From Planctomycetia bacterium (GTDB lineage: Bacteria > Planctomycetota > Planctomycetia > Pirellulales > JALHLM01): a stretch of 53,076 bases of DNA. This document shows positions 19,060 through 51,378 of the stretch, piece after piece (position 1 is the stretch's first letter; every line of letters starts with the position of its first letter). The notes below the pieces were generated by a model. That model worked only from the letters and a program-made list of their open reading frames with translations. It did no database searches and was not told where the DNA came from. A program made the translations under genes and the position numbers. The DNA is taken from NCBI GenBank assembly GCA_034440135.1, contig JAWXBP010000379.1, forward strand, positions 1 through 53,076, in the 5' to 3' direction.

Positions 19060-19111
19060 CCCAGAAGTCGTCGAATCTAATTACTGAAAACTGATCACTG
19101 AAAACTTCCAA

Positions 19112-27400: not shown

Positions 27401-27577
27401 TTACGGAGCCAACTCGGCGGCGACGCTCTCGAACGTGGTGTTCGCGTTCGTGCCGATCGAGTTAATGGCCGTCAAGCAGACGATGATAATCAGGGCCAAC
27501 ATCACGGCGTATTCAACCGCGGTCGGGCCGTCTTCCGAAACCAAAAAACGTTGAACCTTCAAGGCGAAGTTCTGCAT
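27401..27577 (-). CDS. flp: Flp/Fap major pilin (copy downstream)
   Basis: A 58-residue prepilin. The leader MQNFALKVQRFLVSEDG is followed by PTAVEYAVMLALIII, giving the Flp processing site Gly|PTAVEY with Glu at +5 and Tyr at +6. One hydrophobic helix makes up most of the mature pilin. It ends SVAAELAP. The start ATG at 27577 has GGGGAAT upstream. It differs from the neighbouring copy only at residues 2 (Gln/Lys) and 6 (Leu/Ser), both in the leader, so the mature pilins are identical. A strong terminator follows. Confidence 0.93.
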   Translation of the reverse strand: MQNFALKVQRFLVSEDGPTAVEYAVMLALIIIVCLTAINSIGTNANTTFESVAAELAP

Positions 27578-27605: not shown

Positions 27606-27653
27606 GGCGACCCCGCGGCACGCTACGACGCGCGTCGCGAAACGTAGGTCGCC
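27606..27653 (-). promoter_or_regulatory. Leader inverted repeat of the downstream pilin gene
   Basis: GGCGACC (27606-27612) and GGTCGCC (27647-27653) can close a stem in the leader upstream of the pilin start. The same pair, at similar spacing, precedes the other pilin gene (27917-27964). Confidence 0.4.
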
Positions 27654-27719
27654 GCAGTGAGCGGCAGTCGCCGCCGCGGACCAAACGTCCGCGGCGAGCG
27701 ACGGGCCAGTATGCGACGA

Positions 27720-27896
27720 TTACGGAGCCAACTCGGCGGCGACGCTCTCGAACGTGGTGTTCGCGTTCGTACCGATCGAGTTAATGGCCGTCAAACAGAC
27801 GATGATAATCAGGGCCAACATGACCGCGTATTCAACCGCGGTGGGGCCGTCTTCCGAGACCAAGAAACGTTGCACCTTCGAAGCGAAGTTCTTCAT
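27720..27896 (-). CDS. flp: Flp/Fap major pilin (first copy)
   Basis: A 58-residue prepilin reading MKNFASKVQRFLVSEDG then PTAVEYAVMLALIII and ending SVAAELAP. The mature sequence is identical to the copy at 27401-27577. ATG at 27896 has GGAGAAT upstream. The gene is short and easily missed. Two tandem, nearly identical pilin genes suggest recent duplication or gene conversion, perhaps for dosage. It is the first gene of the Tad cluster, behind a long structured leader. Confidence 0.92.
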   Translation of the reverse strand: MKNFASKVQRFLVSEDGPTAVEYAVMLALIIIVCLTAINSIGTNANTTFESVAAELAP

Positions 27897-27916
27897 GACA
27901 TTCTCCAGTCGATTGA

Positions 27917-27964
27917 GGCGACCCCGCGGAAATCAACGATGTACACCGCGAGAAATAGGTCGCC
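27917..27964 (-). promoter_or_regulatory. Leader inverted repeat of the first pilin gene
   Basis: GGCGACC (27917-27923) and GGTCGCC (27958-27964) form a possible stem. Flanking bases GACCCCGCGG and TAGGTCGCCGC are also shared with the other pilin leader, so the leaders were duplicated along with the genes. Confidence 0.4.
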
Positions 27965-28245
27965 GCGTTGAATAGGTTGGATTGATGTCGATGCGACGTC
28001 GGCTCGCGCCGCCGTTGGCCTGCCACGCATCCACGGCCAATCCAAGAAAAGATCCAACTCCTCGCCTCACTTCGCTCGCAGCCTAACAAGAAAATTCACC
28101 AACCGTCTTGCGACAATTGATCAACATCCCTTCGGCAACCGGGCGTCCGACGTGAATCGGCCCCTGGCTTTGCGTCCCGGCCTTACGACCGGTTTGCCCT
28201 TATCGAGGACATTGAGGCGACAGGCCCCGTCGACACTGCCCTAAT

Positions 28246-28380
28246 CCCGGACTCGCTCGGCGGAGAATTCCGCCCTCAACTTTTGATTGCGAGTCCGGGC
28301 CGGCTGGCGTCAGGAACGAAGGCCGCTTTCGCAACCCCCGGTCCCTCGCGTTAGGCCACCTTGCGGGAGCCTTTCGCGGA
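28246..28380 (-). ncRNA. Candidate structured leader RNA of the Flp operon
   Basis: An 11-base perfect inverted repeat (28246-28256 with 28289-28299) encloses a second stem GGCGGA/TCCGCC (28259-28264 and 28269-28274). Just upstream on the minus strand, 28320-28380 holds further possible stems (CCGC/GCGG outer arms; AGG/CCT and GGG/CCC inner arms) and GCGAAAG repeats. Neither strand has a T-run after the stem, so it is not a plain terminator. A regulatory RNA is possible; a riboswitch is only a hypothesis. Confidence 0.3.
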
Positions 28381-28488
28381 CACTCAAAACTAGGTCGAGT
28401 CCGGACGAAGTCAAATTGCGAGCTTGAGAAAATCTTTGCGGAAGGCGGAAACTTTGCCGGCAGGGGGTCCGATTGTAACGGCACGGAA

Positions 28489-28595
28489 GGAGTTTGAAGT
28501 TTTCAGTGTTCAGTTTTCAGTGGGGAAGAAACAGTCCGCATGTTTCGGCCGAGCCGTTTGCTGACAAATACTGAAAACTGAACACTTCAAACTCC
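28489..28595. repeat. Inverted spacer repeat of the TTTTCAGTGTTCAG family
   Basis: The left arm 28489-28521 begins GGAGTTTGAAG and the right arm 28570-28595 is its inverse with a 7-base deletion. A direct copy of the left arm lies at 29401-29434, on the far side of the methyltransferase gene, and a diverged piece at about 19082-19106. Confidence 0.65.
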
Positions 28596-28606
28596 ATTCC
28601 CAAACT

Positions 28607-29395: not shown

Positions 29396-29400
29396 GCGGA

Positions 29401-29434
29401 GGAGTTTGAAGTTTTCAGTGTTCAGATTTCAGTA
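29401..29434. repeat. Copy of the TTTTCAGTG spacer repeat
   Basis: Begins GGAGTTTGAAG and matches 28489-28521 with one substitution. It lies just upstream of the methyltransferase start. Confidence 0.6.
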
Positions 29435-51189: not shown

Positions 51190-51378
51190 AGCCCTGAAGG
51201 GGCGATAGGTAATAGCCAGGGGTGCGAACCCCTGGGGAAAAAACGTAAACAAATTCCCTGAGCCCCAACGGGGCGACACGAACCTACCAAGTATCGCCCC
51301 GTTGGGGCTTTGGTATCGCGTTGGTCAACTAACCAGCGTTTTGCACCGCTGGCTATTGTCTATCGCCCCTTCGGGGCT
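51190..51378. repeat. Nested palindrome in the murE-folC spacer
   Basis: Outer arms 51190-51220 and about 51346-51378 are imperfect inverses (AGCCCTGAAGGGGCGATA with its mirror). Inner arms 51261-51276 and 51294-51309 are exact 16-base inverses (AGCCCCAACGGGGCGA). No gene is seen in 50715-51387; the minus-strand frame across it is a by-product of the palindromes. Confidence 0.6.

Follow-up and report, generated by a model that had tools for sequence, protein, structure and literature searches.

In Clostridioides difficile, pilA1, which encodes a type IV pilin, is a target of c-di-GMP riboswitches; riboswitches of the pilA1 type are class II aptamers that stand before type IV pilin genes in Firmicutes. 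Two further RNA architectures bear on the locus described here. RNAs of the PreQ1-II type form H-type pseudoknots in which one loop contains a hairpin, and HDV-like ribozymes present their strands in the order P1, P2, P1', a P4 hairpin, and P2'. Among class I c-di-GMP aptamers, that of Vibrio cholerae Vc2 (Rfam family RF01051) contacts its ligand through G20, A47, and C92 (PMC4744006).

How does a pilin leader from a planctomycete compare with these systems? The DNA that we analyzed (hereafter, the window) is a stretch of 53,076 nucleotides from a Planctomycetia bacterium of the order Pirellulales. On its minus strand lies a Tad/Flp pilus operon, with matches to Flp_Fap (twice), Peptidase_A24 (prepilin peptidase), TadE, RcpC/CpaB, and secretin domains; the initial annotation had put a structured leader, at 28246–28480, upstream of a surface-structure (pilin) operon, and these matches bear out the operon. 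Judging from sequence comparisons, we consider it probable that the leader of the first pilin gene, flp1, is a c-di-GMP class I riboswitch having an H-type pseudoknot as its platform and a strand exchange between two elements, U and R, that would set expression. The likeness to C. difficile pilA1 lies in the placement of a c-di-GMP riboswitch ahead of a pilin gene; unlike that system, the aptamer here is of class I, the pilin is of the Flp/Tad kind, the host belongs to the Planctomycetota, and the platform is another one. The features of the locus are as follows:

28246–28299, no strand assigned: 54-base hairpin of the initial annotation; restricted to the genus, located outside the riboswitch on the 5' side of the conserved RNA
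28221–28226, minus strand: 5' strand of P0, GGCCUG, a conserved element on the 5' side of the aptamer, some 19 nt away
28213–28220, minus strand: U element, UCGCCUCA, overlapping the 5' strand of extended P1 and pairing with R
28130–28207, minus strand: c-di-GMP class I aptamer (Rfam), with P1, P2 capped by a GUAA tetraloop, and P3
28121–28129, minus strand: 3' strand of extended P1, GGAUGUUGA, pairing with UCAAUGUCC at 28215–28207 (from the sequence)
28062–28078, minus strand: R element, CGAGCGAAGUGAGGCGA, candidate anti-P1 (duplex test and fold)
27971–28050, minus strand: H3 domain (covariance model R1 and covariation)
28045–28038 and 27984–27977, minus strand: helix H3a, UUGGAUUG with CAAUCCAA
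28031–28026 and 27995–27990, minus strand: helix H3b, GAUGCG with CGCAUC
28017–28022, minus strand: 3' strand of P0, CAGGCC, inside the H3 bulge (pseudoknot), about 185 nt 3' of the first P0 strand
28014–28011 and 28003–28000, minus strand: helix H3c, CGGC with GCCG
27917–27964, minus strand: hairpin H4, GGCGACC..GGUCGCC, between H3 and the Shine-Dalgarno sequence (repeat D2; fold)
27903–27906, minus strand: Shine-Dalgarno sequence of flp1, GGAG (from the sequence)
27720–27896, minus strand: flp1, Flp/Fap pilin of 58 aa, the putative controlled gene (PF04964, E 3.4e-9)
27401–27577, minus strand: flp2, second Flp/Fap pilin copy, without an aptamer of its own (PF04964; the genome has a single aptamer and a single R1 match)

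The two pilin genes stand in tandem, and their products are near-identical. A copy of the H4 hairpin precedes each (repeat copies at 27917–27971 for flp1 and 27606–27660 for flp2); the aptamer, P0, and H3 are found ahead of flp1 only.

The initial annotation had suspected a c-di-GMP-I riboswitch in the pilin operon leader. The idea stood, in the form of an aptamer at 28207–28130; its location did not, as this aptamer lies outside 28246–28480, 39 nt 3' of that interval (i.e., nearer the gene) and 233 nt from the flp1 start codon. Riboswitch and conserved expression platform together span 28226–27917. An Rfam scan of the window matched the aptamer at full length to RF03167 (c-di-GMP-I-GGC), the best-scoring model, with 70.0 bits and an E of 1.3e-14 against a curated cut-off of 59 bits; the score for RF01051 (c-di-GMP-I) was 68.1 bits, above that model's curated cut-off of 35 bits. 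It is the single copy in the 7.3-Mb genome. The window RNA has in common with Vc2 and RF01051 the whole aptamer, its P1-P2-P3 layout, and the equivalents of G20, A47, and C92 (Vc2 numbering). Among the 139 loci of the order described below, the A47 equivalent is A in 137 by pattern and, by eye, in the remaining two as well; the C92 equivalent is C in all 139. The consensus of RF03167 instead has G at the A47 position (GACGCGAAG); in the window, as at the other loci, this letter is A (GACGCAAAG). The "GGC" of the model's name seems, from that consensus, to denote the G-containing form. This G, taken as the hallmark of RF03167, is absent from the window and from the other loci; we therefore take the aptamer to belong to the canonical c-di-GMP-I kind, RF03167 being only by chance its top-scoring model, with c-di-GMP as the predicted ligand. 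Double changes occur at several pairs of both P2 and P3, which thus covary. Eight GGDEF domains are encoded in the genome, and c-di-GMP is therefore probably made in the host.

RF03167 matches were present in 132 of the 296 genomes of the order. From the better-scoring matches we fetched and oriented 139 loci; some genomes contribute several, and the counts ignore relatedness. The first gene after the aptamer is an Flp pilin, recognized by ...EDGPTAVEYAVMLALI..., in 91 of these 139 loci, and the other first genes encode TadG-like proteins, CheY/CheW-like proteins, and large surface proteins. Comparison of the loci thus shows a link between the predicted riboswitch aptamer and flp pilin genes across the order. 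In other Pirellulales, four aptamers (L026, L059, L077, and L089) lie ahead of genes for CheY-like response regulators or CheW-like proteins, and eight (L043, L099, L113, L115, L124, L139, L144, and L156) precede TadG-like genes with short leaders; no H3 domain was found in those eight.

What lies between the aptamer and the gene? When flp leaders were placed side by side, GGCCUG about 19 nt ahead of the aptamer and GCAGGCC downstream were both conserved, and the latter is located in the bulge of a three-part stem, H3. Across 32 leaders of group A, 84.7% of the cells in the H3 helices were paired (33–51% in controls with slid partners), with 82 double changes (25–36 in the controls) and a covariation score of 0.421 (at most 0.142 in the controls); a trimmed alignment that omitted the window's genus gave a similar result. 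P0 is near-invariant within the leaders of group A, whose percentage paired is inflated, as these sequences were picked for a visible CAGGCC motif. In an independent alignment of 18 leaders of another family, f7, RNAalifold selected P0 unprompted, and there the helix was 90.5% paired, with double changes. Moreover, alignments of 59 loci, built without using the pairing, contained the whole six-pair P0 core in 53 loci from three clades, with compensatory exchanges between clades (GC-AU, CG-UA, and UA-CG), while the spacing between the two strands varied widely. These comparisons show a predicted helix, P0, that joins the aptamer's 5' flank with the H3 bulge and leaves the aptamer in loop 1. Because its 3' strand lies inside H3, the arrangement is an H-type pseudoknot, in which the hairpin H3c occupies loop 3. 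The platform of Vc2 and RF01051 differs: in the window the aptamer is enclosed by a pseudoknot, with no terminator and no clear masking of the ribosome-binding site (RBS) found.

A covariance model of H3 (R1), constructed from 30 leaders with the window's genus left out, finds the window domain at 28050–27971 on the minus strand (37.5 bits, E 3.8e-8). This match is the only one in the genome; the runner-up in the window had an E of 0.12. R1 also matched several held-out flp loci and none of 27 aptamer loci that lack an flp gene, and nearly all of its matches across the order, as within family f17, lie beside aptamers before flp. One match (L192, E 7.5e-4) was taken as false, the surrounding sequence having no flp gene. 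Since R1 misses the f7 leaders and most of the f15 leaders, the sharing of H3 with these groups rests on separate alignments. No known RNA family accounted for the downstream domain in 18 leaders searched against Rfam with E up to 0.5.

Three flp leaders, rare cases in this set, have P0 and H3 without the aptamer. In L165, GGCCUG is followed directly by H3; in L193 a small hairpin, and in L182 a short stem, replaces the aptamer. The genomes of all three have c-di-GMP-I aptamers elsewhere. These copies suggest that the pseudoknot goes with the flp gene and that the aptamer is an optional insert; they could, alternatively, be secondary losses of the aptamer. Tentatively, and with slightly less than even confidence, we suggest that P0-H3 may be a stand-alone pseudoknot RNA confined to Flp pilin leaders, one that acquired a c-di-GMP aptamer in its loop by insertion, such that the signal would tune its folding. 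That P0-H3 would then be a switchable module of mRNA control, also working alone in some species, is a suggestion we hold just as tentatively. In topology the platform is like the PreQ1-II type, with neither sequence similarity nor an Rfam match, and it differs in having its sensor as a distinct aptamer, placed in loop 1. Its topology and strand order are also similar to those of HDV-like ribozymes. A ribozyme was considered and rejected: there is no P3/L3 and no recognizable catalytic junction, the gap between H3b and the 3' strand of P0 is only about 5 nt, and the 18 leaders searched at E up to 0.5 gave no match to such a family. Separately, at another locus (L173), upstream of an R1 match at 1501–1583 of the oriented strand, lies a c-di-GMP-I-like aptamer whose P2 contains a very long insert; an Rfam search with E up to 1 does not detect this aptamer.

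A purine-rich element, R, lies between the aptamer and H3, where its UGAGGCGA can pair with U and its CGAG with CUCG of P1. The U-R duplex of the window was stronger than 96 of 100 shuffled versions (z -1.97; 4/100), and the ligand-free minimum-free-energy fold of the window leader contains it. The mean z was -1.3 in groups A and f7, better than shuffles, and weak in f15 (-0.4). In some leaders, inspection by eye also hinted at pairing of R with a pyrimidine tract downstream, which forms no part of the proposed mechanism. Because extended P1 and U-R share bases in the window, a ligand-stabilized P1 and U-R would be mutually exclusive. We envisage that, without ligand, R pairs with the 5' strand of P1 and its flank (U-R, or "anti-P1") and that binding of c-di-GMP would stabilize P1 and release R. 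This exchange would in turn alter the assembly of the P0-H3 pseudoknot, which would set the amount of Flp pilin through translation or leader stability; candidate final steps are translation, Rho, and mRNA stability. As to the sign, we lean only somewhat toward flp expression rising at high c-di-GMP (i.e., in surface life), a guess from biology.

Might the aptamer work through an ordinary platform particular to its lineage, by Rho-dependent termination or by masking of the RBS, with P0 functionally unimportant? Platforms are varied among c-di-GMP-I riboswitches, and a terminator-like hairpin with a U-run, the sole such U-run in the window, does stand 3' of the aptamer at 28121–28098. However, in the sister genome this U-run is not continuous; an intrinsic terminator was accordingly rejected as the platform, and no conserved terminator was found in the leader, this one candidate in the window not being kept in the sister. 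RBS masking was likewise rejected: in a nested model of 86 leaders, forcing the aptamer fold left mean Shine-Dalgarno accessibility unchanged (0.41 vs. 0.39), so simple sequestration is unsupported. Moreover, P0 and H3 covary across families and persist without the aptamer. An ordinary platform is thus improbable in our estimation. It is less probable still that GGCCTG/CAGGCC and H3 are kept as an operator or as a site for an RNA-binding protein and not as an RNA pseudoknot. The near-invariance of the P0 core in group A would fit such a site, yet the compensatory exchanges between clades, the variable distance between the P0 strands, and the strand-specific helices with double changes all argue against it. 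As a separate observation on the 3' part of the leader, the f7 leaders (L011 to L151) have an extra conserved and covarying hairpin, CCGGGAGC..GCUCCCG (alignment A1, columns 326–350), then ACAACCAGUAGGG immediately before the Shine-Dalgarno sequence.

Another reading, to which we assign very little probability, is that the segment at 28246–28480 forms the regulatory RNA by itself, be it as a structured leader or as an aptamer, either a second or a degenerate one. The 54-base, two-tier hairpin at 28246–28299 is as it had been described, with an exact 11-base outer stem (CCCGGACTCGC at 28246–28256 and GCGAGTCCGGG at 28289–28299) around an inner stem of GGCGGA/TCCGCC, and the GCGAAAG repeats are present as two copies on the minus strand. 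On that strand (the coding one), folding of the 235-base segment is modestly stronger than expected by chance (z -2.29; 4/200 shuffles); the signal on the plus strand is weaker (z -1.77; 10/200). Among 57 genomes (its own and those of 56 relatives), the segment is present in two, the second being of the same genus, with 95% identity; the congener's copy keeps the outer stem and has one pair fewer in the inner. From about 28450 to 28246 the congeners are 94–98% identical, equal to the riboswitch leader, compared with 72% at third codon positions of the neighboring methyltransferase gene. This difference, which like the strength of the fold speaks for an RNA as well, indicates that the segment is probably under some constraint, as a promoter or 5' leader. 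Against an RNA stand its absence outside the genus, the lack of any Rfam match of note in 28246–28480, and the start of conserved flp leaders elsewhere at P0, 20 bases 3' of the segment. A second aptamer within it was sought and not found at E up to 5. The sequence cues that had been offered for a c-di-GMP-I aptamer, GGCCTAA and CCGGGGGTTGC, are not part of the aptamer found, the Rfam scan gave no c-di-GMP-I match within the reported segment, and full-library Rfam scans had no match to c-di-GMP-II (RF01786). Covariation among relatives, which had been proposed as a check, was seen for the aptamer and the platform; for the hairpin, there are two near-identical sequences only.

Other elements of the window were also recorded. 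A dispersed repeat, GTTTTCAGTGTTCAGTTTTCAG, occurs at 28488–28521, 28567–28596, 29400–29433, and 19084–19105, often as close inverted pairs; the genome has 144 copies at ≤1 mismatch (0 in a backwards control). Two Acido-Lenti-1 RNAs (RF01687) lie on opposite strands, at 51190–51235 (minus) and 51333–51378 (plus); this family, present here in a planctomycete, was described from Acidobacteria and Lentisphaerae.

Our literature search found no c-di-GMP riboswitch linked to Flp/Tad pili in planctomycetes and no description of a pseudoknotted c-di-GMP-I platform. The Rhodopirellula-1 motif (Weinberg 2010) is named without an Rfam accession in PMC2864571. The aptamer class is known; the P0-H3 platform is apparently undescribed, as judged against Rfam and the papers searched.

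The proposed riboswitch would constitute a direct molecular link from c-di-GMP to the main surface pilus in a widespread group of attached bacteria, about the regulation of which little is known. The order offers a natural set of leaders with and without the aptamer, well suited to studying the control of a pseudoknot by a ligand. Should P0-H3 act as a control element in its own right, it would represent a new kind of expression platform. For the Pirellulales, the riboswitch may be a means to set pilus production by a signal of surface life.
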